From a virus, in IMG/VR virus record IMGVR_UViG_3300031957_001759, positions 1-25,260 of that record: a DNA stretch of 25,260 nt; one strand, 5' to 3'. A model generated the notes under the pieces. That model did not search any database, was not told where the DNA came from, and saw nothing but the letters and a program-made list of their open reading frames with translations. Positions 1 through 23,142 of this stretch are shown piece after piece; the stretch's first letter is position 1, and every line of letters starts with the position of its first letter. Position numbers and translations under genes: made by a program.

Positions 1-40
1 ATGGTTATTTTTCAATTATTTTTTACAAATATAAATATGC
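1..40. other. Short intergenic end of window
   Basis: These 40 AT-rich bases lie downstream of the last minus-strand gene and before a gene that would start beyond the window. They hold one copy of the recurring ATATTTAT element (positions 31-38). I see no terminator hairpin here. Confidence 0.6.
31..38 (-). promoter_or_regulatory. ATATTTAT element before an off-window gene
   Basis: Coding-strand ATATTTAT followed by AT-rich sequence, as in the other intergenic gaps. On the plus strand it reads TATAAATA when the preceding base is included. The gene it would serve lies beyond position 1. A promoter role is inferred. Confidence 0.45.
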
Positions 41-427
41 TTAAACATCCAATCGTTTGAGCATTTTCAATTTGATTTGTCTGAGTTGATCACCGTCCGT
101 TAACAACAGAGAGTTTCTGTAGAGTTGCCATGGAATAATGAAACTCTTGTCCAGAACTCCATTGTTACATTCCTTAATGACTGTGTTGAGAGCATTGATG
201 CTATACAATGTGTTACTCTCTTTCTTTCTGTGAATGGAAATGGTGTTAGCAGATCTTCTAGGTGACGGTAACACAATGTTGTAGGTTATATACAGATCAT
301 CCGGACGCTCCTGATCGCAGAACAGAAACATGCGATTTTCACTAAGGTCATATGTTGCAATGATATGTTCTGTAATAATATCCTGATTGCGTCTATGTGC
401 AAATGTACATAATAATTGCGTCTTCAC
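41..427 (-). CDS. Small protein of unknown function (128 aa)
   Basis: I do not recognise a family with certainty. The 128-residue product opens with LLCTFAHRR and has a mixed alpha/beta look, with alternating hydrophobic strands around residues 20-55 and a basic C-terminus (KLKMLKRLDV). There is no signal peptide or membrane segment. The start is GTG, supported by an unusually strong Shine-Dalgarno sequence (GGAGGAGG) lying wholly in the 13-base gap after the upstream gene's stop. It is probably co-transcribed with the PD-(D/E)XK-like gene, because no ATATTTAT element separates them. Small conserved proteins beginning with a similar LCTF stretch occur, from memory, in other marine T4-like phages, but I cannot verify that. 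Confidence 0.75.
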   Translation of the reverse strand: MKTQLLCTFAHRRNQDIITEHIIATYDLSENRMFLFCDQERPDDLYITYNIVLPSPRRSANTISIHRKKESNTLYSINALNTVIKECNNGVLDKSFIIPWQLYRNSLLLTDGDQLRQIKLKMLKRLDV

Positions 428-430
428 TCA

Positions 431-438
431 CCTCCTCC
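431..438 (-). promoter_or_regulatory. Strong Shine-Dalgarno site deciding a GTG start
   Basis: The coding strand reads GGAGGAGG, three bases before the GTG start (about five if the inner AGGAGG is used). It is the best anti-SD match in the window and supports GTG at 425-427 as the start of the 128-aa gene. Confidence 0.7.
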
Positions 439-440
439 TT

Positions 441-1655
441 TTATATTTTTTCTGCTTCTGCTGCAAACAATCCTACAGATCTACCTGAATGCGAATAACC
501 AACAGTATGTGCTCCTTGAGTCGCCCCGCCTGATATACAATCTTCAGTTTCTGCAAAATATAATTTTTGATCAGCTGGTACATAAAATATCAAGCCTTGA
601 CCATTACCAGTAGCAATTGCCATCTCTCTCATTTCCGTATCTAATTCTTCTTGTATTCTTAGATAACCTTCTTCGGCAGTGTTAACATTACCATATTCAT
701 CATTCAATGCATCGATTATATCTTGACGAAGATTACCATCCTCATCCTTGACACGCACTAAACTAAATTCACTTTTAGATAGACCGACTTTACTCAATGT
801 TTTGGCTAGATTTGAATTTGCATATGTATTCAATCCTAATCTTATATATGAATTTTTTGTTTTCAGTTCTTTTACGTGCCAACCTTTACCATTAATATCA
901 ACATCATGAATTGCATTAGCTCCGCCTAACTCACCTCTGTTGAAAAGAAATGGAATAATCAATTCGCCTCTGCCCATTTCAGTCCCTTTTGAACCTCCTC
1001 GCACAGTTCCGATATCTGCCATTCCATAAAATTCAGTAGGTACGCTATAACCACTTTCTCCTAATGGAGGCGATGATATACTAAATAATTCTTTTGCTAA
1101 TACATTAGCGTCAATATTATATAGTTCATCTAATACTTCGTCGATATATTTGGCCGTATATGTAGCAGATGTTATATCATATAAAGTAAAATATAACTTT
1201 TGCAACTTTTTATCAGGTATTATACCTTCTACTGATGATAACCACTCTTGCCAATGTTCTTCTTCAGCAAATTTACCAATCATTCTACGTTTTACTGGTA
1301 TAGTACTTTTTCCCGATGCCGTTTTTATAGCTCTCGACATAGGTTTGAAATCTTTCTTGTTCATATCTTTTTCAAGATATCCAGTAATTTGATCAATTTC
1401 AGCTTTACTGAGTTGATATGTTTTATCTCCTATATTAATTAGCACTTCTCTTAAATTAAGTTGTTGTTCTTCAAGATCTTTGTCAACTGGGTCTGCATCT
1501 AAAAATGCTTGATCTAAGATGTCAGGTGATTCCTTGATATGCTCTGATAACACTTCGTGGAAAATACGCATTTCCTCAGTGCTATATGGTGGTTCAGCAT
1601 AACCTTTAGGCAAACGGTAGAACCATTCCTGTATGACTTTCTCTTTGATGTCCAT
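441..1655 (-). CDS. Phage protein with PD-(D/E)XK nuclease-like signature (404 aa)
   Basis: The N-terminal half (to about residue 200) is charged and helical with no recognised domain. Residues 228-274 carry a pattern resembling the PD-(D/E)XK nuclease core: GRGE (E231), then DVDI (D251/D253), then ELK (E263, K265) and a following RLG. A similar layout (a KGE helix, GD, EVK, then GxRLG) recurs, from memory, in proteins annotated as structural in marine T4-like phages. Catalytic activity is inferred, not shown; the fold could instead serve as a virion scaffold. The ATG has no Shine-Dalgarno, but an ATATTTAT element lies 11 bases upstream and overlaps the polymerase stop codon. The 128-aa gene follows after 13 bases. 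Family membership is moderate; function is unknown. Confidence 0.8.
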   Translation of the reverse strand: MDIKEKVIQEWFYRLPKGYAEPPYSTEEMRIFHEVLSEHIKESPDILDQAFLDADPVDKDLEEQQLNLREVLINIGDKTYQLSKAEIDQITGYLEKDMNKKDFKPMSRAIKTASGKSTIPVKRRMIGKFAEEEHWQEWLSSVEGIIPDKKLQKLYFTLYDITSATYTAKYIDEVLDELYNIDANVLAKELFSISSPPLGESGYSVPTEFYGMADIGTVRGGSKGTEMGRGELIIPFLFNRGELGGANAIHDVDINGKGWHVKELKTKNSYIRLGLNTYANSNLAKTLSKVGLSKSEFSLVRVKDEDGNLRQDIIDALNDEYGNVNTAEEGYLRIQEELDTEMREMAIATGNGQGLIFYVPADQKLYFAETEDCISGGATQGAHTVGYSHSGRSVGLFAAEAEKI

Positions 1656-1666
1656 AGGATTTTCAT

Positions 1667-1674
1667 ATAAATAT
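1667..1674 (-). promoter_or_regulatory. ATATTTAT element before the 404-aa gene
   Basis: Spacing to the ATG is 11 bases. The extended coding-strand sequence ATATTTATATGAAA is shared with the copies before the PhoH-like gene and the Ig-like tail gene. It touches the stop codon of the upstream polymerase gene. A promoter role is inferred. Confidence 0.5.
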
Positions 1675-3017
1675 TAGATAATACGCTTAGTCATGTCTTG
1701 CATTGTGTGAAGATCTGCCCCTGCTTTGATTTTCACAGGAAAGGCTCCACGCTCTGACATCACATCTTTGAGTTTCAATATCAGCTCTTTGCCATCTGTG
1801 AGAGCATAATCAAACAACATGCTGTCATATGTATATAGTATGAACTTGCTGTCATGGCCCTGCAGTGTGTCCATTATTCTGTGTATCACCGTTATGTTGT
1901 GTTCTGTCTCAGTAGCCTGCAGCATGTAATTGAACAGCTTATTGGCATTCATATCATCTGGCAAAGCATCTTTATGCAGAGGCCGTTCAAATATAGGTGT
2001 CGTTACCTGTCCATTAGCTTTGAACTCTCTCCATAGTGTCTGCACATAATCATGACATGCTGCAAAGAATGGAATGCTACGAAACTCCTTGTCAATGTTT
2101 CCGTATAGCAGTCTGAAAGTGATCTGCTTGGAACGTTCATACTGTTCTTCTGTGAGATCATCACCGAAATAGTATTTGCCTAAATGTTCGTGAACAGATC
2201 CTTCTGGAAATTCATATCCTAAGATCTTGGCTATGAGTCGCACATGAAATGCATCGAAGTCCATTTCCAACAGCATGCCTCTCTGATGTCTGCTCACAAA
2301 TGCACTCCTGCAACCGTTCTCCTTATTCAAAGCAGCATAATTCACTCCTCCATGCTTGTTGGATGGCCGGCCTGTGGCAGTGTACAGATTGTATTCACTG
2401 AATGTCTTAGGAGATCTGGTTGCAGTGAAATGTTGTTCAAACACTGACCTGTCAATCTGAAGTCCAGACTGTTCAATAGCATGAAAGGCTGCGATGGACT
2501 GAGATTCATACTGTTGAAATGCTCTGCTGTGACGATGTGTCTTATAACTGCTCATGAACACTTCTCTCATTGCTCTGCAACGCTCCATATGCTTGGTCAT
2601 TGGCAACCAGTCATAACTGTTTGTGGTTCCGCTCCACCAGGCTCCCCAGGCATTGTGACATGCTGTATTGCTGTCATCCAATGGCAGTGGCTTTCCTGTT
2701 TGCCACCAATGCACCATGTCAGCATCCACCGTTCTATACGGGTAGTATGCCATTAATCGCTTTCTGCCCAATGCATAGATCACCTTGGAACTTGTAAGGT
2801 GTTGCAGAAGGTCGTTACTTTGGTTTACGCAGTCGAAATGATGGAATGGAACTATCCAGTCCTGTGCATCTGAGATAGTATAAATGTAAACGAAACTCAG
2901 TCTGGTATCAGCATAGTGTCGAAAAGCATCTGAGAACATTGGAATCCAGAAACTATCTGATTCCTTCAGAGATTCCTGCAATGCCTTGATGTCACCTGGA
3001 TGTTCAGCTATTATCAC
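1674..3017 (-). CDS. Compact family A DNA polymerase
   Basis: Template-directed DNA synthesis is indicated by all three polymerase-A motifs. A TATGRPSN stretch (213-220) matches the family's TxTGR motif. Motif A is DFDAFHVR (D253 as the metal ligand). Motif B is KQITFRLLYG (K297, F301, Y305). Motif C is YTYDSMLFD (D398). Differences from E. coli Pol I are Tyr293 at the position of Arg754, and TYDS in place of VHDE. The protein is only 447 residues. The N-terminal 160 residues look like a decayed 3'-5' exonuclease (VYIYTISDAQDWIVPFHHF) without a clear catalytic DxE, and only about 25 residues separate the LQID segment from TATGR, so the thumb is much reduced. The start is GTG with no Shine-Dalgarno, and an in-frame TAA lies two codons upstream. 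Proofreading, if any, must come from another protein. Confidence 0.9.
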   Translation of the reverse strand: MIIAEHPGDIKALQESLKESDSFWIPMFSDAFRHYADTRLSFVYIYTISDAQDWIVPFHHFDCVNQSNDLLQHLTSSKVIYALGRKRLMAYYPYRTVDADMVHWWQTGKPLPLDDSNTACHNAWGAWWSGTTNSYDWLPMTKHMERCRAMREVFMSSYKTHRHSRAFQQYESQSIAAFHAIEQSGLQIDRSVFEQHFTATRSPKTFSEYNLYTATGRPSNKHGGVNYAALNKENGCRSAFVSRHQRGMLLEMDFDAFHVRLIAKILGYEFPEGSVHEHLGKYYFGDDLTEEQYERSKQITFRLLYGNIDKEFRSIPFFAACHDYVQTLWREFKANGQVTTPIFERPLHKDALPDDMNANKLFNYMLQATETEHNITVIHRIMDTLQGHDSKFILYTYDSMLFDYALTDGKELILKLKDVMSERGAFPVKIKAGADLHTMQDMTKRII

Positions 3018-3021
3018 GCAT

Positions 3022-3028
3022 TAAATAT
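3022..3028 (-). promoter_or_regulatory. Variant ATATTTA element before the polymerase
   Basis: Only seven of the eight bases match (ATATTTAA), four bases before the GTG start. If the full element is a promoter this could be a weak or leaderless version, but it may be chance in AT-rich sequence. Confidence 0.25.
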
Positions 3029-3053
3029 AAGAAGAATATTTCAATGCACCAAA

Positions 3054-3692
3054 TTATTCGTGAAATTCTGTGAGATCAGATAAGAAGTTTCTCAAACCAG
3101 GCATCGAGTTTTCATTTTTAGATATCACACGTCGATTTGCCTTACGTACTTCTTCTACTAGCCCTCTGATGGTCCAGGACAAATCTATCAAATTGTAAAG
3201 TTTCTGATCAATACCAGTCTGATTTCTGTCATTTGAATATTGATATGCACTAGATGATATTTCTATAATGTCCAACTCATTTATTTTCTGAGCAAAAAAT
3301 CTTCTCATTGTGCCATTGCGCCGTTCTTGAGTTGTCGGTACTGGATAATAAGATCTAGGCGTTACATAACTATAAAACCTTGTACCTGTTATCTGAGCAT
3401 ATGTCAAGTTGTTTTCAGGAATATCATTGACAGTTTCATAATTATTTGAAGTCTCAATTCTGATGTATTTTGTAAGTGGCTGTGAATTTGCATTCGGAAC
3501 ACCGCCAGTATATACTGCTCCATTTGGATATATGTGATAAAGTCCAACATACTCAACTGTGGGAACCAAACCAAGATCATTATTCTCACTCTGTTGCATG
3601 AGCATGAATTCCTTACCATTTGTAAGTTGACGCAGTTTTACACGATTGAGGGGCGTATTCAATGGTCTAATTCTAAATGCTCTATCTGACAT
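3054..3692 (-). CDS. Probable virion structural protein (212 aa)
   Basis: Soluble protein with no signal peptide or membrane segment. Residues around 45-65 contain GLYHIYPNGAVYTGG, a pattern (YHxxxxGxxYTGG) that I associate with small structural proteins of marine tailed phages, though I cannot name a family. The C-terminal third is helical and basic. Its ATG lies two bases after the stop of the upstream hub-like gene, with no Shine-Dalgarno, so translation is probably coupled. Position at the end of the LysM/hub group suggests a baseplate or tail accessory role; this is inference from context. Confidence 0.75.
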   Translation of the reverse strand: MSDRAFRIRPLNTPLNRVKLRQLTNGKEFMLMQQSENNDLGLVPTVEYVGLYHIYPNGAVYTGGVPNANSQPLTKYIRIETSNNYETVNDIPENNLTYAQITGTRFYSYVTPRSYYPVPTTQERRNGTMRRFFAQKINELDIIEISSSAYQYSNDRNQTGIDQKLYNLIDLSWTIRGLVEEVRKANRRVISKNENSMPGLRNFLSDLTEFHE

Positions 3693-3694
3693 AA

Positions 3695-5455
3695 TTACTT
3701 TAAAATTCTAGGTACGCATTTCACTTCAGTTGTCCAATCAACTCCATCACATTTTTGCTCCCATTCTGTCACTGTCCATCTCAATTTTCCTCCTCCAGCA
3801 ATTGTACTTGGCAGCCCATTGAGTTTCAGAAGGCCTCCAAATTTCCAACCAACACAACCATTTGTCACCAATGTCACTTCCAATGGTATTGGTGTAGGAT
3901 CAAGTTTTTCTGAATTTCTAAACTTTTTAGTTGCTCTACTGTTCACAAGCTTCCTTAGTCCTGCACGTGCTGCTTCATCATAACCTGATTCGCCTAATAT
4001 TATTAAGGCATTTTTATAATCAGAGCTCGACGGGTCTTGCTTTTCAGCTTTTGATACTATACCAGTACCAACTTTTCCTGCGTTCTTTGCAGTACCATCA
4101 GAATCAGGAGCTTCTCCAAAATATTTAGCTGTCAAACTGCTTGGAACAGCTCCTGTGAGTTGTATTTCTCTCACACCAGATGTGCCACTGCCTATCTGCG
4201 GAACATTTATATTTAGAGCTGAAGGTGGAGCGCTACCAATGCTCATGTTCTTGTTGACCACATAGATGGTATTCGGATCATCCTCAGGCACATCTAATGT
4301 CAAATCTATCCAGTTACCGGTGTTCTGTCTGATAGCGCCGAATATGGCATCAAAGAATTTCTTCATAGGCAATTTACCTGACTCTCTGTCCTCAACTTCT
4401 ACGTTACTATCCTCCATTATAGCCATTTTGGTCTGCTCAATCAATTGATTGATGAAGATTGTGTTAATGAATATGTTTAATGCTTTATTAGGATCAAAGA
4501 ATGAACTGACATCAAATTCTGTCTTAGTGGCTGGAGTGCCATATGAATATGCATTGCTTGAAAACTTCCAAACCACTGCTGTGGGATCAGATGATATCAT
4601 GCCAGGGAATATATCCACCTCGCAATATTTTTGACTATCTGAGATAGAAAATCGAGATCCTTGCAAACAGAATCTATTGACAAGTCTTATAAGGCTCTGA
4701 AGTTCCACGAAGTTGCAAGGTGTGTTATGGTCTTCAATACCACCAGGATGTATCAGACCAGGTGTCTCCTTGCTCAGTCCTGCCATTTCTGCAACTACGA
4801 TAAAAACCATCTGCCCTCCTAAAGTGAAAGAATGAAGTTCTGCAAATCCATTTTCATTATAACCAGGATTGTTCAATCCATTGAACAGCCAGTTATCTAA
4901 TTGACCTGTCAATTTCTGACATTGATAATTGATGTAGTCAAAGAAAGTCAATGTTTCGATTTCTTCATTGAGTCCCTGATAACTGGCTACATACTTTGCT
5001 CTGGTAGTAAATTTGTGATTCAGAATGTCCAGCTCATCATAGAGTCGGCCCGGGCCTTCTCCTTTGCTCAGACCTTTCACTGTCACTTCAAAACCTCCTA
5101 ATCGATCCATTTCAAAATTGAAGTCAAATGTAGTGAAATTGCCTGATTCAGTACCTCCTGACGCTGTACCAAACTCTACATAAAATGAAGATCCCAGTCT
5201 CACTAAGTTTGAATACATTGTATTGAACTGATCCTGTGTGTAGGCTTTCAACACAACTTCACATCTTTTCAGAAGTCCAATGCCTTGTGTATGAATTTTG
5301 ATTGATTTGCAGTGAGCCGTCGGAGGGCCGGAAGGAGATACATCAGTTGTGTCATCTTTAAATCCATATCCCGCTGCTGAACCTTTAATTATTCTTTCTC
5401 TCAATGTACCTGTGCTGGGAATATTCACTGACATCCCTCTCATAAAGAAACTCAT
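3695..5455 (-). CDS. Probable baseplate hub/structural protein (586 aa)
   Basis: The N-terminal region (about residues 45-130) has a run of beta-strands around HTQGIGLLKRCEV and YSNLVRLGSSFYVEFG. This resembles the opening of hub-type proteins that pack a conserved strand pair before a surface-width (VEFG) segment. The middle (160-330) is mixed and the C-terminus ends in a beta-rich block with KFGGLLKLNGLPS and WTVTEWEQ. No lysozyme domain or catalytic residues are visible. The start overlaps the LysM gene's stop as TAATG and is preceded by AGAGGAG, so coupled translation is likely. Place between a LysM baseplate protein and a structural protein favours a gp27-like hub or spike role, but no specific T4 counterpart can be assigned from sequence alone. 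Confidence 0.75.
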   Translation of the reverse strand: MSFFMRGMSVNIPSTGTLRERIIKGSAAGYGFKDDTTDVSPSGPPTAHCKSIKIHTQGIGLLKRCEVVLKAYTQDQFNTMYSNLVRLGSSFYVEFGTASGGTESGNFTTFDFNFEMDRLGGFEVTVKGLSKGEGPGRLYDELDILNHKFTTRAKYVASYQGLNEEIETLTFFDYINYQCQKLTGQLDNWLFNGLNNPGYNENGFAELHSFTLGGQMVFIVVAEMAGLSKETPGLIHPGGIEDHNTPCNFVELQSLIRLVNRFCLQGSRFSISDSQKYCEVDIFPGMISSDPTAVVWKFSSNAYSYGTPATKTEFDVSSFFDPNKALNIFINTIFINQLIEQTKMAIMEDSNVEVEDRESGKLPMKKFFDAIFGAIRQNTGNWIDLTLDVPEDDPNTIYVVNKNMSIGSAPPSALNINVPQIGSGTSGVREIQLTGAVPSSLTAKYFGEAPDSDGTAKNAGKVGTGIVSKAEKQDPSSSDYKNALIILGESGYDEAARAGLRKLVNSRATKKFRNSEKLDPTPIPLEVTLVTNGCVGWKFGGLLKLNGLPSTIAGGGKLRWTVTEWEQKCDGVDWTTEVKCVPRILK

Positions 5456-5745
5456 TACTTCTCCTCTTCTGCTTGCTCCAGCATGTCTCTGTAACTCATT
5501 GTGCTGTCAGGGATACGTAACTGCATGCCCGGTGGTACTACTAATGTGCCTTTGCCAATCTGATTGGCCTCAGCCAGAATCCACCAGGCCTCTGCGGATC
5601 CGTAGAAACGATTGGCTAACAGATCTAAACGATCACCTGTTCTACTGATGATGAACAGATCATTGTCTGATCTTGGTATCTCAGGATATCTGCTACTGCG
5701 ATATCTGTCTTGATCAATGTCAGTGAATTCATATCTTCTCTTCAT
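5455..5745 (-). CDS. LysM-domain baseplate protein, gp53-like
   Basis: Residues about 30-79 form a LysM-type module: an opening ISRTGDRLDLLANRFYGS, the AWWILAEANQI helix, and a closing PPGMQLRIP turn. This arrangement is typical of small phage baseplate/tail proteins (T4 gp53, P2 gpX type), where LysM holds the hub and wedge or tail parts together rather than degrading peptidoglycan. It is 96 residues with an acidic C-terminal tail, so shorter than T4 gp53. It is first in a coupled group with the hub-like gene (TAATG overlap) and the 212-aa gene. An ATATTTAT element lies just five bases before the ATG and there is no Shine-Dalgarno. Confidence 0.85.
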   Translation of the reverse strand: MKRRYEFTDIDQDRYRSSRYPEIPRSDNDLFIISRTGDRLDLLANRFYGSAEAWWILAEANQIGKGTLVVPPGMQLRIPDSTMSYRDMLEQAEEEK

Positions 5746-5750
5746 ATGTT

Positions 5751-5758
5751 ATAAATAT
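5751..5758 (-). promoter_or_regulatory. ATATTTAT element before the LysM gene
   Basis: This is the shortest spacing in the window: five bases separate it from the ATG. If the element acts as a -10 box, the transcript would be nearly leaderless. The plus-strand reading is TATAAATAT. Confidence 0.45.
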
Positions 5759-5786
5759 CTAACTGTGAAGAATTTGATGTTTGAAA

Positions 5787-8303: not shown

Positions 8304-8306
8304 GGC

Positions 8307-10694: not shown

Positions 10695-10697
10695 TTA

Positions 10698-10940: not shown

Positions 10941-10953
10941 AGCAGCTTTTTGT

Positions 10954-10961
10954 ATAAATAT
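10954..10961 (-). promoter_or_regulatory. ATATTTAT element before the small gene/tape measure group
   Basis: It lies 13 bases upstream of the ATG, in the gap after the gp51-frame stop, and is followed by ACAAAAAG. The preceding base makes the plus strand TATAAATAT. A promoter role is inferred. Confidence 0.5.
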
Positions 10962-10975
10962 GTTATGATATGATT

Positions 10976-11251
10976 TTAACGTTTTCTTGGCCTGTTGTTA
11001 GTTTTCAACTTTCTCATCTGTTTATCATGTTCTTCCTGTTGTTTTTTGAAGTAACTTGATAGTTTCTTGATGTGAAACTGACGTATAAATACTGGCATGT
11101 CCATTACGTCAGAATATGTGAAAGCACCTTTGGAATGAAATATCAGATCATGAATCTGATCTTCCTTCTGTAATTTATATTTCGGTGTCAGGCCAAAAAA
11201 AGTCCAATCCAATGTTAATTGAACTTCGAAAGGTATCGCCGGACTCTCCAT
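10976..11251 (-). CDS. 51: gp51-like tail/baseplate-hub assembly protein, probably made by frameshift
   Basis: The segment YKLQKEDQIHDLIFHSKGAFTYSDVMDMPVFIRQFHIKKL resembles T4-like gp51 (baseplate hub assembly catalyst) with its conserved yHxxxafTyxdVxxMPxxxRxFxIKK pattern; the C-terminus is a charged helix. The open frame begins inside gp26 and overlaps its last 77 bases in the +1 (equivalently -2) frame. The only early ATG (11249-11251) has no Shine-Dalgarno, and conserved residues start after the T7 run, so the real product is probably a gp26-gp51 fusion. A shift after gp26 Phe284 would give 284 + 72 = 356 residues. Independent initiation at the ATG (91 aa) remains possible. Confidence 0.8.
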   Translation of the reverse strand: MESPAIPFEVQLTLDWTFFGLTPKYKLQKEDQIHDLIFHSKGAFTYSDVMDMPVFIRQFHIKKLSSYFKKQQEEHDKQMRKLKTNNRPRKR

Positions 11252-12047: not shown

Positions 12048-12076
12048 TTATACTCCTGTTTAAAACTTGTTCAATA

Positions 12077-12084
12077 ATAAATAT
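12077..12084 (-). promoter_or_regulatory. ATATTTAT element before gp26
   Basis: It lies just past a terminator (relative to transcription) and 29 bases before the gp26 ATG, the longest spacing seen. The plus-strand reading is AATAAATAT, not the exact T4 late promoter sequence. Confidence 0.5.
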
Positions 12085-12101
12085 GCAACTCATATAAAAT
12101 G

Positions 12102-12126
12102 AAAAAGGTCTCCGAAGAGACCCTTT
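12102..12126 (-). terminator. Rho-independent terminator after the tail tube gene
   Basis: On the minus strand, AAAGGGTCTC and GAGACCTTTT form a 10-bp stem (one G-U pair) closed by a C(UUCG)G tetraloop. The U-run is the outer part of the right arm plus one more T. It lies 25 bases after the gp19 stop and before the gp26 promoter element, so it separates tube and hub transcription. Confidence 0.85.
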
Positions 12127-12150
12127 CACAATTTTGGATGTATGGCAATC

Positions 12151-12639: not shown

Positions 12640-12656
12640 TCTCTATATCCTTTTAT

Positions 12657-12664
12657 ATAAATAT
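12657..12664 (-). promoter_or_regulatory. ATATTTAT element before gp19
   Basis: 17 bases before the ATG, followed by ATAAAAGGATATAG, so the Shine-Dalgarno comes just after it. The plus strand reads TATAAATAT. Confidence 0.5.
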
Positions 12665-12678
12665 CCTGTTTTCAGATT

Positions 12679-14838: not shown

Positions 14839-14865
14839 TTATATATTCCTTTGATTTATTTTTTT

Positions 14866-14873
14866 ATAAATAT
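14866..14873 (-). promoter_or_regulatory. ATATTTAT element before gp18
   Basis: 27 bases before the sheath ATG and followed by AAAAAAATAAAT. The plus strand reads TATAAATAT. It lies in the 54-base gap between the 91-aa gene and gp18. Confidence 0.5.
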
Positions 14874-14892
14874 CGACCGGAACTCCCAAACC

Positions 14893-15168
14893 TTATTCTG
14901 CAGGCTTAAATTCTCCGTTTGTGAGATCAACAGTGCCGGTACCATATTTTTCATTGAGATTAGTTACTAATTCTTTTTCTCTGTCAAGTAGTTCTTGATA
15001 TTCCTTATTGAGACGTTCTTCTTCAGCTGCAATTGCATCTAATCTTTCTCTGGTAGTTTTATGTTCAAGATAAATATATCCAAACTCAGTCACCTTTCTA
15101 TCAAAACCATCTCTGATATCTTGAATACTTTCAAGTTCTTCATTCGTAAATTTTATTGTTTCTGCCAT
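14893..15168 (-). CDS. Small acidic coiled-coil protein (91 aa)
   Basis: Nearly all of residues 5-75 could be a coiled coil (ELESIQDIRDGF, then TTRERLDAIAAEEERLNKEYQELLDREKELV), ending with GTGTVDLTNGEF. No enzyme motif is visible. It sits between gp15 and gp18, where T4 carries the terminase genes 16 and 17; at 91 residues with no ATPase motif it is not a terminase large subunit. A small-terminase role is not supported by any motif, so it is left unassigned. An ATATTTAT element precedes the ATG by 12 bases, with an A-rich leader and no Shine-Dalgarno. Confidence 0.75.
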   Translation of the reverse strand: MAETIKFTNEELESIQDIRDGFDRKVTEFGYIYLEHKTTRERLDAIAAEEERLNKEYQELLDREKELVTNLNEKYGTGTVDLTNGEFKPAE

Positions 15169-15180
15169 AACTTTTTTTTA

Positions 15181-15188
15181 ATAAATAT
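15181..15188 (-). promoter_or_regulatory. ATATTTAT element before the 91-aa gene
   Basis: 12 bases from the ATG, followed by TAAAAAAAAG. The plus-strand reading is AATAAATAT. Confidence 0.5.
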
Positions 15189-15193
15189 ACGTT

Positions 15194-16042: not shown

Positions 16043-16578
16043 TATAAGTTCCTTGGTATATCAGATGCTCGATTTATTCCTGATCTAACTTCTTGTATGT
16101 TAAGCCTGTTACGTTTCACAACATGAGCAGTTGCAGTGATTGCTATGGATTTTCCAAATTCATCTCTTTGACCTCTTACAAAGCCTAAATCTGTACTAGG
16201 ATTCTTGCCAGCGAAGTATTGTGATGAACTCACACCATTAACTTCATAAAATTCATTATCATATTCTATGATATCGCCTTCTTCTATTATTATATTCTTG
16301 TCTTTCAAATCATCTCTAAAAAAGGCAAATTCTCCAGATCTAGTCTGATCATATCCCGTTTCATCAGCCACATATGATTTTTCATCTTTTCTGATTATAC
16401 AATTTATTGCCATACGTTGAAAATAAATTTTATTTTCAGTTTCATCATAGATATTAATACTACTATCTCTAGCACTTAGTTTATAGAAACCAATCTCCAT
16501 GTCAATGAATTCATTGATAAGTTCTCTATTTAGGTGTCGTACTAAAGATGCATCGCGAGCTGATCCAAATAATGCCAT
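16042..16578 (-). CDS. 14: Neck protein, gp14
   Basis: 178 residues opening with MALFGSARDASLVRHLNREL, which is typical of T4-like gp14 (T4 itself is 256). It has beta-strand runs such as INCIIRKDEKSYVADETGYDQTR and IIIEEGDIIEYDNEFYEVNGV, and an IAITATAHVVKRNRLNIQE C-terminal strand. With gp13 it seals the DNA-filled head and provides the tail-joining collar. Its ATG lies three bases after the gp13 stop region, with an AGGAT Shine-Dalgarno-like sequence. It overlaps gp15 by the TAATG sequence. Confidence 0.85.
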   Translation of the reverse strand: MALFGSARDASLVRHLNRELINEFIDMEIGFYKLSARDSSINIYDETENKIYFQRMAINCIIRKDEKSYVADETGYDQTRSGEFAFFRDDLKDKNIIIEEGDIIEYDNEFYEVNGVSSSQYFAGKNPSTDLGFVRGQRDEFGKSIAITATAHVVKRNRLNIQEVRSGINRASDIPRNL

Positions 16579-16581
16579 ACT

Positions 16582-17778
16582 TTATCCTATATAAATTTTC
16601 AAAGGTATTGCGTTAAACTGAGATGATAGCGCTGAAGCTTCGGCTGCTTTTCGCTCTAACTGAGCTTGCCGTGACATGCTATCCAACATCTGTGTCAGTT
16701 CGTTTATAAGCGAATCTTTTTCAGACTGACCTTGAGATAGAAGATCAGCTGCGTTAAGTGTGATATCTGCATTTGGTATTGGTATACTACTATATTTACC
16801 TCTGACATATCCTAACATTTCTTTTACACATGCTAATGCGTAACGACGTATCCACTGTTTACTAATATCATTTAGATTAGCATATGTAACGTTATCATAA
16901 GGTATATTAGATAAATCTGATACTGACGTGCCAGTACCACCACCATTTCCTGTTTCAGGACTACTCAATGGATTATTGATATCAGATTTTAGATAATAAT
17001 CAAAACGGACCTTGGTAAAATTTCTTCCATTAGGTATAGGAAAAAATCTAATTCTGTTACCACTAAGTTCAAAACTGAATGCTGATTTTCTGATCTGATC
17101 ATTGAATTCAATTGCCTGTAATCTTAGTATATCATAATAGATAGGCATCATCATAAATGATACACCAGGAGAATAATTACCGTAACCAAATTCTGCTAAC
17201 AACTGCTGTGAGCCTAATCCAGTTCCTATAAATGGATCAAAGTATCTTACTATAGCAGGAGGAGCTTCATGATAAATTCTACGTATCTCTATAGCATCAA
17301 TACCTGGTGAACCACTTTCAAAAGATACCAAATCAGTATCTGTGAAATCATAAATTTGTTTTCCAGATACCATATCAATTGAACCTGTATAAAATGTATG
17401 ATTACCTCCTATGCCAGCTGCTTGACCATAACTTGAAGCTAAGTCTGTCAATGCAGTGAAAGATGGTTGGATAGCCTGTCCAGTTAATGAACCTCCATCT
17501 GTACTAGTACCATATACATTTATCATGTTGTCACGAGCATTGTACATGTTGACTTGAGTTCCATATTCTGATACGGCTTCTTCAAATGCTGCATAAAAAT
17601 TAATATCCTGCAGTTCGACATCTACAATAGGGTATCCTAGACGCTTTGCACACCAATCAGCTACCTGATCGGCCTCTGCTGCAAAATCAACATCAGTGTC
17701 ATAGAATGCGAAAGGTGTTTGCCCAGATCCTGGAAAGAAGGATGATGATCCTGGCCATATAGGAATGTTAGCTGCCAT
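16582..17778 (-). CDS. 13: Neck protein, gp13
   Basis: 398 residues, longer than T4 gp13 (309). The N-terminal WCAKRLGYPIVDVELQDINFYAAFEEAVSEYG is the conserved helix pair of gp13-like neck proteins. The middle (about 75-150) is a Ser/Gly-rich insertion. Further core segments are IEIRRIYHEAPPAIVRYFDPFIG, FMMMPIYYDILRLQAIEFNDQIRKSAFSFEL and FTKVRFDYYLKSD, then the C-terminal helix QWIRRYALACVKEMLGYVRGKYS. It binds the portal end of the filled head. It is first in the gp13-14-15 group. No Shine-Dalgarno is seen; an ATATTTAT element lies 18 bases upstream. Confidence 0.85.
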   Translation of the reverse strand: MAANIPIWPGSSSFFPGSGQTPFAFYDTDVDFAAEADQVADWCAKRLGYPIVDVELQDINFYAAFEEAVSEYGTQVNMYNARDNMINVYGTSTDGGSLTGQAIQPSFTALTDLASSYGQAAGIGGNHTFYTGSIDMVSGKQIYDFTDTDLVSFESGSPGIDAIEIRRIYHEAPPAIVRYFDPFIGTGLGSQQLLAEFGYGNYSPGVSFMMMPIYYDILRLQAIEFNDQIRKSAFSFELSGNRIRFFPIPNGRNFTKVRFDYYLKSDINNPLSSPETGNGGGTGTSVSDLSNIPYDNVTYANLNDISKQWIRRYALACVKEMLGYVRGKYSSIPIPNADITLNAADLLSQGQSEKDSLINELTQMLDSMSRQAQLERKAAEASALSSQFNAIPLKIYIG

Positions 17779-17796
17779 AGTCTATGAGATTTTATT

Positions 17797-17804
17797 ATAA
17801 ATAT
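17797..17804 (-). promoter_or_regulatory. ATATTTAT element before the neck genes
   Basis: 18 bases before the gp13 ATG, followed by AATAAAATC. The plus strand reads TATAAATAT. It would serve gp13, gp14 and gp15 together. Confidence 0.5.
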
Positions 17805-17827
17805 GGCAGATGTAGTTTAATCAATCG

Positions 17828-18043
17828 TTATTCGTCTACGTATGAAGCACTGTACCAGGTAATATATTCTGATGGTGCTGTGTCATACCATGTCCAGCCA
17901 TTGAAAGGATAGGAATGATCTTCATGATTTGCTACTGTTAGTTGCCATTGCTGGTAAGGGCCATGTATAGTATGACCTGTCCACCAATAGTCTTCTGTAC
18001 TATCGTAATTATAATAAGCTGATCCTGAATAAAACTTTGGCAT
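17828..18043 (-). CDS. Tiny Trp/Tyr-rich protein (71 aa)
   Basis: The product has 6 Trp and 11 Tyr in 71 residues and opens MPKFYSGSAYYNYDSTEDYWW. No family is recognised. Aromatic-rich surfaces often bind sugars, but that is inference only. I chose the ATG at 18041-18043, 11 bases after the BspA-like stop, rather than the upstream in-frame TTG (18074-18076), which lies inside that gene. Neither has a Shine-Dalgarno; the leader is A-rich. It closes the fibre/BspA cassette and has no ATATTTAT element of its own, so it is likely read on the same transcript. Confidence 0.65.
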   Translation of the reverse strand: MPKFYSGSAYYNYDSTEDYWWTGHTIHGPYQQWQLTVANHEDHSYPFNGWTWYDTAPSEYITWYSASYVDE

Positions 18044-18054
18044 AATTTTTAATT

Positions 18055-20115
18055 TTAAGATGTTGTAACTGTCCAACCTTTATCGGTTGCTATTGATGTA
18101 TCACAAGTTGAAGCTCCTACAGTACCGCTTACATCTATTGTTTTTCCTGTTACTGTTGCTAAACTTTCAAATATTCCATCCAATACTTCTTTAGTCATTC
18201 CATGACAACTGCTAAAGTCTACATTGTTAGAAATACCAGGAATATCAACTACGTTTAAAGCATCACAATTAACAAATGTACTAGTAAATGTTGCTCCTGT
18301 ATAACTCATATCAGCCTCCAATTTAGTTAACTCTCTACAACCTGAAAAAGCTTCATTCCAATTGGTTACATTATTAGAACCTGTAATATAAATAGCTTTA
18401 ACTCTTCCTACAGTTTTGAATAGGTCATCGCATGTAGTATTTTGATGCATGCTAATACTCACAGGTGTTTGAATTGTATTAGTAAAATCTGAAGATTCAA
18501 ATGTATCAGCTAAATCAGTTGCTGCAGTGAAATTGAAATGAGGCATATCAGTTAAACATTCTGCTAAATTAAACATTAGATCTGCAGAAGTGACCGATTG
18601 AAAAGACATTGATTCTAAAGTTTTCAATCCTATACAATTATTAAACATGTTTTGAACATTTTGACTCTTACCTACATTTAAAGGACCTAATGTATGCATA
18701 TCATTACAACCTTTAAACATCGCATTAGTGTCAACAGCTTCGGATACTAAATCAGGATGTGGTCTGAAATCTCTAAAACTTGAACATGCTGTAAACATTC
18801 CATCTGCTTGAGTAGCAGCAGGGAAGGTTAAATTAGTAGGAAACATTTTATCTGCTAAGCTATGACAATTTTCAAATGTTGTTACTGTGTTAGCAACATT
18901 AGTAAAATCAAATATACCATCTGAGTTAGCAGTCCCGGTTGCACTATCTATTGTTTGATTACCTATTTTTCGTAATGAACGGCATCCCATAAACATGTCA
19001 AAGGCAGTTGTAGCATTAGGAAATTCCATATTCCCTACATTTACAAGATTTGAACAATTTCCAAACGTACCTCTTACAGTAGTACATGATGAACCACTAA
19101 GGCTTCCGGAGGGTCCGTCAGCATGAAGCATAGAGTGATTACCATTAAACATGTTTTGAGCACTTGTACAAAGAGAAAGATCTTGTCTAAAATCCGTATC
19201 TCCTATTGTACATGCTAGTAATGCATTATTATTATTAAAATGACTATCTCCAGTATATGAAGCATTAGGACTAGGATATCTAAAAAATTTACAAGCTCTA
19301 TTCTGATTAAATGCAAAGTTAGTACTACCGTCTAGAGTTCCCATATTACCTACAAAGACAAATCTTTCTAACATTGTCCTTCTTGCTCGACTTTCTCCTT
19401 CTACTCTTAATTTAGTGAAATTGGTACCTGCCATTCTGATATCTAATGCGTTTATTGCCATTCCATCTAAACCTGGATTAGGAGTAGCAGTTGTAACAGT
19501 AGTTACACCCATTAGGAATTCAGTAAGTTGTTGGCCTGCCTGAGGTGTGATAGTGCAAGTAGCTACTTTATATCCTTCTGATGAAGCACTTGAAGCAGGT
19601 AGTGCAGACGCTGAATATATACGACCTGCTTCAGCATTAGCGCTATATGAATTAGAAGTACCATCACCCCAGTTCACATCAAAATCGCCGGCACATCTGA
19701 AATGTAGATAATTGGAACCAGTATCAAATACTGCAGTTTGTATTACAATTTTTTCATCTCCTTCACTTACCAAGGAATCTATGTCTGGCCAATCTGGTCT
19801 TATATGATCATAAATAACTCCTACCACTTCATGAGTAAATGAACCTGATGCGGCTGAAGTGCCATCTGAAGCAATACATTTGATAGGACGGTCTCCTAAT
19901 AGATTGCTAGCAGTGTAAGGTAATGTCAATCCTGAACCTATGTAAACATTGTCTTCATACCATTCAGCATTAGTTAGAGTTACTCCTGCTGTATCAGTGG
20001 TGGCTGTGAACACTGCTGAACTAGACAGATAAACACTTCTGGTCTGTGATTGTTGTAATGTTAGATCAAATCCTCCGCCGGTGGCAGGAGCTGGTATTGT
20101 TATGTATTGCATCAT
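18055..20115 (-). CDS. BspA-type leucine-rich-repeat tail/adhesion protein (686 aa)
   Basis: The N-terminus has an Ig-like domain (about 30-95, with AEWYEDNVYIG and IKCIASDGTS) and a VNWGDGTSN segment. From about residue 240 onward there is a long series of BspA-type repeats of roughly 20-26 residues, with a recurring MFxxCxxL/Lxxl core: MFNGNHSM, TFGNCSNL, MFMGCRSL, MFTACSSF, MFKGCNDM, MFNNCIGL, AFSGCREL, TFVNCDAL. The C-terminus (TIDVSGTVGAS, IATDKGWTVTT) is the usual closing strand of such proteins. BspA repeats in bacteria and phages mediate surface binding. The start overlaps the fibre stop by four bases. A receptor-binding role is inferred. Confidence 0.85.
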   Translation of the reverse strand: MMQYITIPAPATGGGFDLTLQQSQTRSVYLSSSAVFTATTDTAGVTLTNAEWYEDNVYIGSGLTLPYTASNLLGDRPIKCIASDGTSAASGSFTHEVVGVIYDHIRPDWPDIDSLVSEGDEKIVIQTAVFDTGSNYLHFRCAGDFDVNWGDGTSNSYSANAEAGRIYSASALPASSASSEGYKVATCTITPQAGQQLTEFLMGVTTVTTATPNPGLDGMAINALDIRMAGTNFTKLRVEGESRARRTMLERFVFVGNMGTLDGSTNFAFNQNRACKFFRYPSPNASYTGDSHFNNNNALLACTIGDTDFRQDLSLCTSAQNMFNGNHSMLHADGPSGSLSGSSCTTVRGTFGNCSNLVNVGNMEFPNATTAFDMFMGCRSLRKIGNQTIDSATGTANSDGIFDFTNVANTVTTFENCHSLADKMFPTNLTFPAATQADGMFTACSSFRDFRPHPDLVSEAVDTNAMFKGCNDMHTLGPLNVGKSQNVQNMFNNCIGLKTLESMSFQSVTSADLMFNLAECLTDMPHFNFTAATDLADTFESSDFTNTIQTPVSISMHQNTTCDDLFKTVGRVKAIYITGSNNVTNWNEAFSGCRELTKLEADMSYTGATFTSTFVNCDALNVVDIPGISNNVDFSSCHGMTKEVLDGIFESLATVTGKTIDVSGTVGASTCDTSIATDKGWTVTTS

Positions 20116-21995
20116 ATTGTTCTGGAACCACTTATAATGAATAATCCAACCGCAGCTGGAGTTATTTTCAATTTGTCAAACTGATTGAGTGTTATTGGCA
20201 AAAGCTGCTGTGAAGAGAATGTCTCAGTGTTAGCACTTGCAGTGACAAATCCTACCACATCCATTGATGCAGTGGAGGAACCTGTGAAGTTCACAGTCAA
20301 ACCAAATGGAGCAATGTAAGTGAATGCTGTAGCTGATTCAAAATTGAAAAATGTTTCAAAACTGGTATCTATCACTTCTGCGGTGATAGGTTGTTGAAAG
20401 GTAACTGAATCTCCGACTGTGATGGGCGAATTACCTACTAAATGTGAGAAAGATCCTGTTACTCCAAATACGTCTCCACTTGCACTTATGTTACCAAATG
20501 CTGTAATATTAGTAGCTCCAAATATATCACCATCTACCATACTTATGCTACCTGATACTTGTAAGGCATTACCATCGTCTGGTTGTTTTCTTATACCAAC
20601 ATTATTACCTGCTAATGCTAATACGTGATTATCTGAATTATTACTATTGAAATGTAATCCATGATTAGGATAAATGATTTGTGCATCTCTGTTATCTCCA
20701 TCAAATGTAGATCCTGATATTATTAAACTGGTATCAGTACCTCCAAATATTTGTTGTTGTACTTTAAAAGAATTGCCTACTATCTGACTACTTGCACTTA
20801 TGTCACCATTTACAATTACTTGAGTATCACCAAACAATTGACCCATAAATTTATGAGGGCCTCCTGATGCTGTTAAATTACCAACTAATCTTAGTGATTG
20901 TGCCGGCTGCTCTTCACCTTGAAAGCCTATACTTACACCTCCAGCAAATGCACCATCAACATTGATATTTAAACGATCAATTGCTGTTTGTCTGGCTAAT
21001 GCATTTTTACCACTTATTAGATAAGCTCCGCCGGCGGCTGTACTTTTTGCATCAAATCTATTAGCAGTTATATTTCCACTTGCACTTACAGCTCCCGACG
21101 CTGTTACATTTCCAAATATTACATCACTACCTGTTATTGCAAATGATGCAGTTTGTGCATTAGTTACAAATGAAGCAGTTTGTGCATTAGTAACTAGATT
21201 AGATAAATCTTGATCACCAGTGTTTGTACCACTTAAATTATTGGCTATGATATCACCACTTGCACTTATATCTACAGATGCTGTAATAGATCCTAAGCTG
21301 TTAAATCCGGCAACACCTGCTTCTAGTGATAAAAATTCACCCCTACCAGCTCTTACTTTAGTACGAGTACCTGTACTGTCTTGTACATTAAGTCCCGTTG
21401 TTGGATCAAATTTAAGTCTTCCAGTTTGGACTCCTGTAATTCTATTTCTGAACTCAATGGTATCATCATCAGTAATTATATGATTGAATGAACCTGTTAG
21501 AGCTGTAATTGTGGCACCACTTGCACTTATGTTGCCAGATGCTGTAATATCATTAACTACTATAGATGGTGTTCCAAATAAGTTACCTGCTTGATCAGCT
21601 GTTTGAGCATGTGAAGAAGACACTTCAAATGTTATCTCATGAGATGCTGACACAGCAAACAGTGCATGTGATGCAGTTACTGCAAAGGATGCAGACGTAG
21701 CTGTACCAGAAAAACTTCCTGTTATGCCTGCAGTGGCAGTGATAGATCCAGAAAATATGGCAGGACCAATATTTGTAAATGTTGATGATCCTGATATTGT
21801 AAGTGATCCTGTGATAATTTGATCTCCTACAAAACTGTTAGATCCAGTTACTGCAAATGATCCGGTGGGTTGTACAGCACCGTCTGCGCCGGTCGGGCCT
21901 TGAGGTCCTTGAATGCCTGCTGCCTGTACAACTACTGTTTGACCAGATGTTGTCACATTTACTGTATTCTCATTTGTTGTTACTTGTGTTGACAT
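20112..21995 (-). CDS. Long tail-fibre-like repeat protein (627 aa)
   Basis: Residues 27-40 are a short collagen-like run (GIQGPQGPTGADGA). The rest is dominated by Ser/Ala/Gly/Thr repeats: TASASFAVTASHALFAVSASH near 99-119, two copies of VTNAQTASF at 268-285, and repeated ISASG elements. The last 80 residues are beta-rich with LLPITLNQFDKLKIT and GLFIISGSR. This make-up is typical of trimeric fibres with a stiff repetitive shaft. The fibre starts one base after the Ig-like gene's stop and overlaps the BspA-like gene, so all are probably translated together. No enzymatic or intramolecular-chaperone domain is visible. Fibre identity rests on composition and context. Confidence 0.8.
   Translation of the reverse strand: MSTQVTTNENTVNVTTSGQTVVVQAAGIQGPQGPTGADGAVQPTGSFAVTGSNSFVGDQIITGSLTISGSSTFTNIGPAIFSGSITATAGITGSFSGTATSASFAVTASHALFAVSASHEITFEVSSSHAQTADQAGNLFGTPSIVVNDITASGNISASGATITALTGSFNHIITDDDTIEFRNRITGVQTGRLKFDPTTGLNVQDSTGTRTKVRAGRGEFLSLEAGVAGFNSLGSITASVDISASGDIIANNLSGTNTGDQDLSNLVTNAQTASFVTNAQTASFAITGSDVIFGNVTASGAVSASGNITANRFDAKSTAAGGAYLISGKNALARQTAIDRLNINVDGAFAGGVSIGFQGEEQPAQSLRLVGNLTASGGPHKFMGQLFGDTQVIVNGDISASSQIVGNSFKVQQQIFGGTDTSLIISGSTFDGDNRDAQIIYPNHGLHFNSNNSDNHVLALAGNNVGIRKQPDDGNALQVSGSISMVDGDIFGATNITAFGNISASGDVFGVTGSFSHLVGNSPITVGDSVTFQQPITAEVIDTSFETFFNFESATAFTYIAPFGLTVNFTGSSTASMDVVGFVTASANTETFSSQQLLPITLNQFDKLKITPAAVGLFIISGSRTI
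20477..21529 (-). repeat. Dispersed 12-base repeats encoding ISASG in the fibre
   Basis: The plus-strand word CACTTGCACTTA occurs at 20477-20488, 21077-21088, 21257-21268 and 21518-21529, with an 11-base match at 20790-20800. On the coding strand it encodes ISASG or VSASG. Identity at DNA level, including synonymous positions, suggests recent duplication or recombination within the shaft. Confidence 0.7.
21144..21197 (-). repeat. 27-base tandem duplication in the fibre shaft
   Basis: Two adjacent 27-base units, 21144-21170 and 21171-21197, share the core GCAGTTTGTGCATTAGT and encode two copies of VTNAQTASF. The unit length keeps the reading frame, so the number of copies could vary without breaking the fibre. 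Confidence 0.75.
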
Positions 21996-21996
21996 G

Positions 21997-22410
21997 TTAT
22001 ATAGTAGTTACCTGCTGTGTTACTGTCACATTACCTTCCAACAATCTAGTTCTTATCGACCCTGAAGTCAATTCAATGTCATATACTCCTTTGCTGAATG
22101 TGAAATTATCTGTAACACCATAACCTATATACACTCCTATACTACCTGAAGACAATGGATTTGTCAAATTGCTGCCAGATAAACTTAAGAATGATCCAAA
22201 AACTGTTTTTGAATAATTTGTTCCCGAAGCTAAACTAGATGAAAGTGATGCAAATGTTGTCGCAGTATCTCCAGGCCTGGCGTCTTTGATTTGCATACTG
22301 GCACTGTATCCTGTTAAATCTACAAGTGTGCCTGAACTGTCCTTGTAAACTATTTCAAAATCGGTAGTTGCTCCTCGTTCTACAACAAATGAATATTTAC
22401 CTGCGGCCAT
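21997..22410 (-). CDS. Ig-like tail/fibre-base protein (137 aa)
   Basis: Residues 1-60 have the pattern GKYSFVVERGATTDFEIVYKDSSGTLVDLTGYSASMQIKDA, widespread in small phage tail proteins, where a strand is followed by DLTGYxAxMQIK. The C-terminal half reads GVYDIELTSGSIRTRLLEGNVTVT, the usual end of this beta-sandwich domain. It resembles upper-baseplate N-terminal domains that anchor fibres. It comes directly before the fibre gene (one base gap), which supports a role in attaching it. An ATATTTAT element lies 13 bases before the ATG; no Shine-Dalgarno. Confidence 0.8.
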   Translation of the reverse strand: MAAGKYSFVVERGATTDFEIVYKDSSGTLVDLTGYSASMQIKDARPGDTATTFASLSSSLASGTNYSKTVFGSFLSLSGSNLTNPLSSGSIGVYIGYGVTDNFTFSKGVYDIELTSGSIRTRLLEGNVTVTQQVTTI

Positions 22411-22423
22411 AGCTTATTTTCAT

Positions 22424-22431
22424 ATAAATAT
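22424..22431 (-). promoter_or_regulatory. ATATTTAT element before the fibre cassette
   Basis: 13 bases before the Ig-like gene's ATG; the extended sequence ATATTTATATGAAA is shared with the copies before the 404-aa and PhoH-like genes. It would serve the four-gene host-recognition cassette. Confidence 0.5.
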
Positions 22432-22443
22432 AGAAGTTTTAAC

Positions 22444-23109
22444 TTAGTAACTGCCATTAAGTATGGTGAGTAGTTCATCAATCGCCGGATGTCTATGAGA
22501 GTCCTTTAAAACCGTTTTAAACACGTAATCAGACCCGGTTAACTTGCTCATGTCATGATAAGCAGAATAGTTAGGATCTTTCAGATCTATTTGAAATGTG
22601 TCACCACAGAATATCATTTTACTGTCTTTACCTAAACGACCAATTGCCATAGATAACTGTGATCTAGTCAGATTCTGAAATTCATCTACTATCACAACTG
22701 CATTATCAAATGTTCTACCTCTGAAATGAGCTAGTGCCACAAGTTCAATTTTTTCTTCTTTTTCAAGTTTTTCCAGAATGTCTGGTTTATTATATACTTT
22801 ACGCATATTACTTCTGATAGGAACTAACCATGGTTCCATTTTTTCTTTTTCACTGCCAGGCAGAAAACCATTATCTTCAGTTGCTACTGTGGGTCTTGTT
22901 ATTACAATTTTATTTACTTCACGTTTAAATAAAAGATCTAATGCAATCTGACAGGCTAACAGAGTTTTGCCAGATCCTGCCTTTCCTAAAATAAAGTTAT
23001 AAGGTTTACTTAAAATTTCAGCTTTGGCTGCTTTTTGCTCTTCAGATAATGTAACAGAGAAACGAACAGCTCCTTTTGGCGGAGCCTTGTCAATATTTTG
23101 TTTTGCCAT
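22444..23109 (-). CDS. PhoH-like ATPase
   Basis: P-loop ATPase of the PhoH family, 221 residues. Walker A is GKAGSGKT (42-49), Walker B is VVIVDEFQN (138-146), and a MIFCGDTFQID segment follows (165-175). KIVITRP (67-73) and GFLPGSEKEKM (81-91) are conserved family blocks. PhoH-like genes are common in marine phages. The biochemical role is unsettled; helicase/RNA-related and phosphate-stress roles have been proposed. It follows a terminator after gp23 and has its own ATATTTAT element 25 bases upstream, so it is probably transcribed separately from the capsid gene. Confidence 0.93.
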   Translation of the reverse strand: MAKQNIDKAPPKGAVRFSVTLSEEQKAAKAEILSKPYNFILGKAGSGKTLLACQIALDLLFKREVNKIVITRPTVATEDNGFLPGSEKEKMEPWLVPIRSNMRKVYNKPDILEKLEKEEKIELVALAHFRGRTFDNAVVIVDEFQNLTRSQLSMAIGRLGKDSKMIFCGDTFQIDLKDPNYSAYHDMSKLTGSDYVFKTVLKDSHRHPAIDELLTILNGSY

Positions 23110-23134
23110 ATAATTGCCGTTATATCGGTTTCAT

Positions 23135-23142
23135 ATAAATAT
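23135..23142 (-). promoter_or_regulatory. ATATTTAT element before the PhoH-like gene
   Basis: It lies directly past the gp23 terminator and 25 bases before the ATG, with the extended sequence ATATTTATATGAAA. Placement between a terminator and a gene start is what a promoter would show. Confidence 0.55.

Follow-up and report, generated by a model that had tools for sequence, protein, structure and literature searches.

Which signal is carried by the short A/T word that recurs ahead of the genes in a 25,260-base stretch of viral DNA (IMG/VR record IMGVR_UViG_3300031957_001759, here called the window), and does it face these genes or face away from them? All 24 listed genes of the window lie on the − strand, and its proteins were matched by PHROGs to T4-type gp18, gp19, gp23 and PhoH and, more weakly, to gp26-like and gp13-like proteins. 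The original prediction had described the octamer ATATTTAT as a reversed T4 late promoter that faces away from the genes, and had offered as explanations a divergent late promoter read by a phage sigma factor or an RNA-processing or translation signal. We found that the element points toward the gene behind it, as a forward box, and our analysis makes it very probable that this box is the forward late promoter of a T4-related phage group, known as far-T4, with a −10-type element read by a phage sigma factor.

Placement and conservation of the upstream box

Exact counting identified 12 copies of ATATTTAT in the window, all on the − (coding) strand, against a chance expectation of 2.44 ± 1.78 for both strands together (maximum 8 in 100 shuffles). 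Eleven of the 12 copies fall in the 627 bases (2.5%) that lie outside genes, one of them, at 1667–1674, overlapping the end of the polymerase gene by one base. The left ends agree with the eleven intergenic positions, 5–29 nucleotides (nt) before starts, that the original prediction had listed, and the single in-gene copy noted at that time is the same lone copy found here. The word precedes 10 of the 22 scored window starts and occurs once inside genes; where the window includes the start codon (ten copies), box and start codon are 5, 11, 12, 13, 13, 17, 18, 25, 27 or 29 nt apart. The strict form ATATTTATANNAAAA is confined to the coding strand of the window, with five copies. Among the 8-mers of the upstream regions, ATATTTAT/TATTTATA likewise ranked first. 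After the nine-letter word ATATTTAT[AT], a tail of two free bases and AAA (N2-AAA) is present in eight of the eleven intergenic copies and missing from three. As the original prediction had stated, gp23 has no exact copy (its 12-nt upstream gap is empty), and the polymerase gene is preceded by a variant, ATATTTAA.

To this window we added relatives fetched by gp18, namely 80 loci and four longer contigs, counting distinct scorable upstream sequences; the scan returned at least 598 stretches encoding a gp18 relative, and the box was scored only in the 80 kept. The box was present in every scored relative before the 80-amino-acid (aa), gp19, gp13-like, Ig-like, PhoH and 404-aa genes, in all but one before the gp26-like gene, in all but two before gp18 and in the majority before the 91-aa gene (Table 1); in a separate count of distinct gp18 upstream regions, 51 of 52 carried it. 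No box was found before the within-unit genes of the relatives, i.e. those for 282 aa (p282, 0/48), 178 aa (p178, 0/46), a second 91-aa protein (p91b, 0/27), the tape measure (0/8), polymerase (0/8), 212 aa (0/7), 838 aa (0/3), 79 aa (0/3), gp23 (0/2) and 128 aa (0/2). The hub, BspA and fibre genes were without scored relatives in these counts. The earlier statement that the element heads each gene group is upheld for the likely transcription units, with the qualification that the copy at 5751, before the LysM-type gene, is not shared across the phage group.

The pooled logo of 256 upstream regions reads ATATTTATA-N2-AAA, each A of the tail at approximately 0.94. The distance from box to start codon in the relatives is loose, 9–41 nt overall and 22–34 nt for gp18. 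No general upstream (−35) element appeared in the pooled logo, with gp18 as the exception: TTTG[AG] stands exactly 17 nt before the gp18 box in 55 of the 57 relatives that have the box. Exact spacing upstream together with loose spacing on the mRNA side is the pattern expected of a promoter. The longer form GTTTG[AG] (window 14874–14895), at its fixed 17-nt spacing before gp18, was rare before the other scored genes.

Direction of the box

The word TATTTATA is the reverse complement of TATAAATA, the T4 late box; read in the same direction, the two are identical at six of eight positions and different at two. Since TATAAATA is nearly identical to its own reverse complement, a forward two-letter variant such as TATTTATA resembles the T4 box read backwards. 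Reading of the + strand confirmed the earlier observation that nine of the eleven intergenic copies show TATAAATA there, the exceptions being 12077 and 15181; the same word also occurs on the + strand inside genes at 11084 and 18387. The conclusion drawn from it, a T4 late promoter facing away from the genes, was not supported: the position of the tail (clear in four of seven sets), the terminators and the word of Rhodothermus phage RM378 indicated the opposite direction.

The N2-AAA tail lies on the gene side of the box in 7 of 8 cases in the window, 16 of 19 in contig G001, 14 of 15 in contig G005 and 10 of 24 in the Flavobacterium phage immuto, and on the far side in none of the four. Boxes are also enriched behind terminators: 24 of 57 genes located behind a same-strand terminator carried the box versus 116 of 750 genes without one (odds ratio 4.0, p 4e-6; nine sets, kinship of genomes ignored, with one near-identical case shared by G001 and G002), and the box was downstream of the terminator in 22 of the 24 cases having both. 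RM378 has genes on both strands; TTATTTAAA-N2-AAAA precedes 34 of them, in a count whose direction toward the gene was fixed by the construction of the search, and among its 161 upstream regions TTATTTAA (toward the gene) was present 27 times versus 10 for TTAAATAA (away). Among words read toward the gene, TATAAATA ranked first in the T4 late region, with 12 of 56 upstream regions versus 5 for TATTTATA (p 0.14), and also in the Methylophilales phage Melnitz-3, with 7 of 61 versus 0 (p 0.016); in S-SM2, TATAAATA was found in 3 and TATTTATA in 0 of 60. Toward the gene, the T4 late box TATAAATA stood before 0 of 22 window genes.

A candidate sigma factor and the competing explanations

No sigma gene was detected in the window; a search for one in related genomes yielded a gp55-like candidate family of approximately 230–260 aa in immuto (immuto26A_153, L088:28174-28872), the Microcystis phage Mel-JY01 (158764-159534, L093:8764-9534) and RM378 (Rm378p020, L095:17032-17826), annotated as hypothetical in all three. 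When 14 records were searched with PHROG 234, the family of T4 gp55, the only match besides T4 was a weak one to immuto26A_153 (E 0.008). Its homologue in Mel-JY01 is clear (phmmer 1.2e-38) and that in RM378 distant (E 6e-7, two-row profile), and tblastn detected relatives in at least 404 and at least 587 stretches in two IMG/VR scans. Searches for close relatives via the hub protein, or via the Mel-JY01 sigma alone, gave none.

A 19-row profile of the candidate matched 7 of 24 records, six of them already in the profile and the seventh G017, and nothing in T4 or in the sixteen gp18-bearing contigs G001–G016. The longest of these contigs, G001, follows Mel-JY01 in broad colinearity between the terminase (~16 kb) and ~150 kb and has no homologue of the Mel-JY01 genes at 151–190 kb, the region holding the sigma gene (158.8 kb), so that the absence of the sigma from G001 says little. 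One record, G021, encodes both gp18 and a sigma of the Mel type, which shares 60% identity with the Mel-JY01 protein.

Compared with a profile of five gp55 sequences, the candidate aligned over 90 columns of region 2 (E 2.5e-4, probability 43%). The AlphaFold2 model (pLDDT 77.5, pTM 0.48) was then compared by structural alignment, in which the best 50 of 603 chains were all, by title, sigma factors or chains of RNA polymerase complexes; T4 gp55 in a promoter complex (7d7c_F) was second, tied with the first (Z 9.6, root-mean-square deviation 4.7, 120 residues). The best viral match in Foldseek was the sigma factor of Bacillus phage Shanette (E 0.013). These results suggest that the modelled candidate has a sigma region 2 fold resembling that of T4 gp55, the link to gp55 by sequence being weak. 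A conserved C-terminal domain of ~97 aa follows (domain model pLDDT 88); a fold search with this domain gave no row at Z ≥ 5 among 72 chains, and a PDB sequence search at E ≤ 1 gave none for the sigma profile or the domain. In all 17 sequences the candidate gene lacked a box of its own, and a box lay within 90 nt past its end in 15 of 17 (many close relatives in both counts), as if the sigma were made before the late units. In Mel-JY01, clamp-loader genes were recognized by PHROGs 168 and 225, and the gene adjoining them was not recognized as a clamp. The annotated sigma of RM378 (PHROG 1740) was considered as a common reader and rejected, because searches of immuto, Mel-JY01, T4 and ten related contigs did not find it. 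This ECF-like sigma (L094:48329-48928) is located three genes from gp23 and shows weak similarity by tblastn to uncultured gut phages of the cr type.

In the forward-promoter reading, the host core RNA polymerase with a phage sigma would recognize TATTTATA as the −10 element, the segment that opens would be the A/T-rich tail, and the predicted transcript would start approximately 5–6 nt past the box and read the unit of structural genes, presumably late in infection. The −35 DNA would generally be free to vary, as in T4, with TTTG[AG] at its fixed 17 nt before gp18 as the exception. The likely reader would be the candidate sigma, with a gp55-like region 2 and its own conserved C-terminal domain; as in the original prediction, a phage sigma is the most likely reader, given this candidate and the same box across phages of different hosts. 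In a further and less probable reading, the branch comprising the window group, Mel-JY01, immuto and RM378 may use a re-coded late promoter (a TATTTA core and N2-AAA) read by its own fused late sigma, a single chain that combines a gp55-like region 2 with a second conserved domain possibly doing the work of the separate gp33. If so, this would be a natural fused late sigma, and box and sigma would have changed together along the lineage (TATAAATA, TATTTATA, TTATTTAAA); no natural fused late sigma had been found so far according to a T4 review (PMC2988020).

Several observations weigh against the forward late promoter. The several boxes 4–5 nt from the called start codon would give leaderless mRNA, which is unusual, unless the start codons were called wrongly, and the transcript starts in these phages are predictions only. 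The LysM box occurs in only 1 of 18 relatives, so it is not group-wide. The box of Mel-JY01 is weaker, being found in 19 of 240 upstream regions and in 27 copies inside genes; the side preference of the tail is absent or unclear in this phage (1 versus 1 of 13), in G020 (6 versus 2 of 24) and in G021 (3 versus 2 of 10). In the 50 kb read from LR756508, whose capsid is 53% identical to that of the window, none of 67 genes has TATTTATA in front, and G027 has the sigma family with a different leading word, CTTATCTT. As for the reader, the window itself lacks the gene, and no contig was seen that was both 80% close to the window in gp18 and sigma-bearing. The five-gp55 profile matched nothing in immuto, Mel-JY01 or RM378, hmmscan of the candidate against the gp55 family gave E 0.5, and the candidate profile, run against the open reading frames of the loci, ranked the gp55 of Melnitz-3 first at E 0.18, with T4 gp55 at E 1.3. 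Values of Z below 13 can be common for helical models, and Foldseek gave no match of the candidate to the PDB at E ≤ 0.001.

If the + strand TATAAATA drove antisense transcription away from the genes, the exact match at nine of eleven copies would be explained, but no far-side tail was seen in the window, G001, G005 or immuto, the box follows the terminator of the upstream gene, and words in the TATAAATA direction are rare before the same genes (0–4 per gene set of relatives); a reversal would also be needed, because the T4 and Melnitz-3 boxes face their genes. Such a divergent promoter, the leading option of the original prediction, is extremely improbable. A signal for translation or RNA processing in the 5′ leader would suit boxes lying near start codons, some at 4–5 nt and many in RM378 at ~5 nt from the ATG, and Bacteroidota hosts often lack Shine-Dalgarno sequences. 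However, this option of the original prediction fits less well, because the start distance is loose while the spacing upstream of the gp18 box is exact; moreover, a separate Shine-Dalgarno-like GGAG often follows the gp18 box, within-unit genes have no box though they are also translated, and the box is enriched after terminators. We regard a leader signal as quite improbable.

A promoter read by a host sigma is likewise improbable. Host promoters of Flavobacterium and Microcystis differ, and the presence of the same box in phages of both, immuto and Mel-JY01, argues for a phage factor as reader. In addition, many early-region genes of immuto carry a different word, ATATTTAG, the window has no excess of sigma-70-type promoters (33 versus 38.5 and 48 versus 48.0 expected), and a conserved phage sigma candidate exists. 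On the other side, the box is a −10-like A/T word, and the Microcystis phage Ma-LMM01 is reported to have host-type promoters throughout (PMC5780444).

Range, known late promoters and features of the window

The leading upstream word was ATATTTAT or TATTTATA in the window, G001, G002, G003, G005, G020, G021 (where ATATTTAT precedes 24 of 138 genes) and immuto, and it was third in Mel-JY01. Besides LR756508, TATTTATA was found before 0 of 81 genes in LR756511 and 0 of 58 in RHph_I46 (50 kb read each), and in G027 the box was not leading (12 of 298 upstream regions, 33 copies in genes). The box is thus a feature of a branch and not of all T4-related phages. Other leading upstream words of G027 (L318–L327) overlap to approximately CTTATCTTTAAGT. 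In Mel-JY01 (L087, L091–L093) a second upstream word, ACCTAACA, precedes 7 of 240 genes and never occurs inside genes. Many early-region genes of immuto (L086, L088; mostly ~60–77 kb) share a longer word around ATATTTAG, approximately TATATTTAGGTATCAATAATTAAAA, which is unlike the late box and is possibly an early promoter.

The late promoter of T4 is described as a box of 8 bp that lies about one turn of the helix before the transcription start, has no −35 element and is read by gp55, gp33 and the gp45 clamp (PMC2988020, PMC7892883). The window element shares with this gp55-dependent promoter (TATAAATA; PMC2988020) a single 8-bp A/T box at the predicted −10 position, A/T-rich DNA downstream, the general lack of a −35 element, repetition through the genome and a place before structural, presumably late genes, here gp18, gp19, gp26-like, gp13-like and others. 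It differs in the word TATTTATA (identical at 6 of 8 positions), in an AAA that is fixed behind two free bases and in the gp18 upstream element. Marine T4-like cyanophages have the late box NATAAATA (PMC2984593) and Melnitz-3 has TATAAATA, each before homologous genes, and the annotations of Melnitz-3 and S-SM2 both include a late sigma of the gp55 type. These phages keep the AAA half of TATAAATA, whereas the window group has TTT. RM378, with TTATTTAAA-N2-AAAA, is alike in the TATTTA core, the N2-A tail, the place before genes and the distant sigma candidate, but its box ends in AAA instead of ATA and is often very near the start codon, its genes lie on both strands, and its genome also has the ECF-like sigma not found in immuto or Mel-JY01. 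The candidate sigma resembles T4 gp55 (PHROG 234) in its predicted region 2 fold and a weak profile match; it differs in length, gp55 having 185 aa, in its C-terminal domain and in lacking a clear sequence match.

In T4-like phages, TATAAATA, TATAAAT or NATAAATA have been reported (PMC2984593, PMC5587285, PMC3037559, PMC9004378), and the literature searched, whose coverage left out most subscription papers, including the RM378 genome paper, held no report of TATTTATA as a late promoter. Other phage groups have been annotated by searching for the T4 word TATAAAT (PMC3037559, PMC9004378); in this branch such searches would miss the promoters or read them backwards. For a large group of T4-related phages, most of them uncultivated, the box would allow transcription to be mapped from the sequence alone, and several box forms together with a candidate sigma family make promoter–sigma co-evolution testable.

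Table 1. Boxes and associated elements in the window, with their retention before the same gene in relatives
Feature	Position	Strand	Remark
Box facing a gene beyond the left window end	31..38	−	Just past stop codon of 128-aa gene
Box ATATTTATA-N2-AAA before 404-aa gene (then 128 aa)	1661..1674	−	Kept in 2/2 relatives
Box before LysM-type 96-aa gene	5751..5758	−	5 nt to start codon; no AAA tail; 1/18 relatives
Box with N2-AAA before 80-aa gene/tape measure/838-aa unit	10948..10961	−	18/18 relatives
Box before gp26/51-like 290-aa gene	12077..12084	−	Directly after terminator; no AAA tail; 46/47 relatives
Intrinsic terminator upstream of the 12077 box	12102..12127	−	Terminator prediction
Box with N2-AAA before gp19 (tail tube)	12651..12664	−	49/49 relatives; gp19 by PHROGs
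Box with N2-AAA before gp18 (tail sheath)	14860..14873	−	57/59 relatives
TTTGG, gp18 upstream element, starting 17 nt before the box	14886..14890	−	TTTG[AG] at same spacing in 55/57 relatives with box
In-gene copy, 91-aa gene; probably chance	15070..15077	−	Exact count
Box with N2-AAA, ATATTTATT form, before 91-aa gene	15175..15188	−	44/54 relatives
Box with N2-AAA before gp13-like 398-aa gene (then 178 aa, 282 aa)	17791..17804	−	32/32 relatives
Box with N2-AAA before 137-aa Ig-like gene/fibre/BspA unit	22418..22431	−	6/6 relatives
Box with N2-AAA before PhoH, after terminator	23129..23142	−	5/5 relatives
Intrinsic terminator GGGGTGTC...GGCACCCC and T run, upstream of PhoH box	23160..23188	−	Same stem listed on + strand in another search

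Finally, the gp18 leaders of some relatives, such as L013, L033 and L041, have bases just upstream of the box that can pair with the Shine-Dalgarno region (in L013, TTTTACTC with GAGTAAAA), a pairing that would mask this region only in read-through transcripts. Masking of this kind occurs in some T4 late genes. In a swap test of this pairing over eight gene sets, six were null (132 to 198 of 200 swaps reached the observed value) and PhoH was weak (9 of 200, five sequences), while gp18 stood out, with 1 of 200 swaps reaching the observed value.

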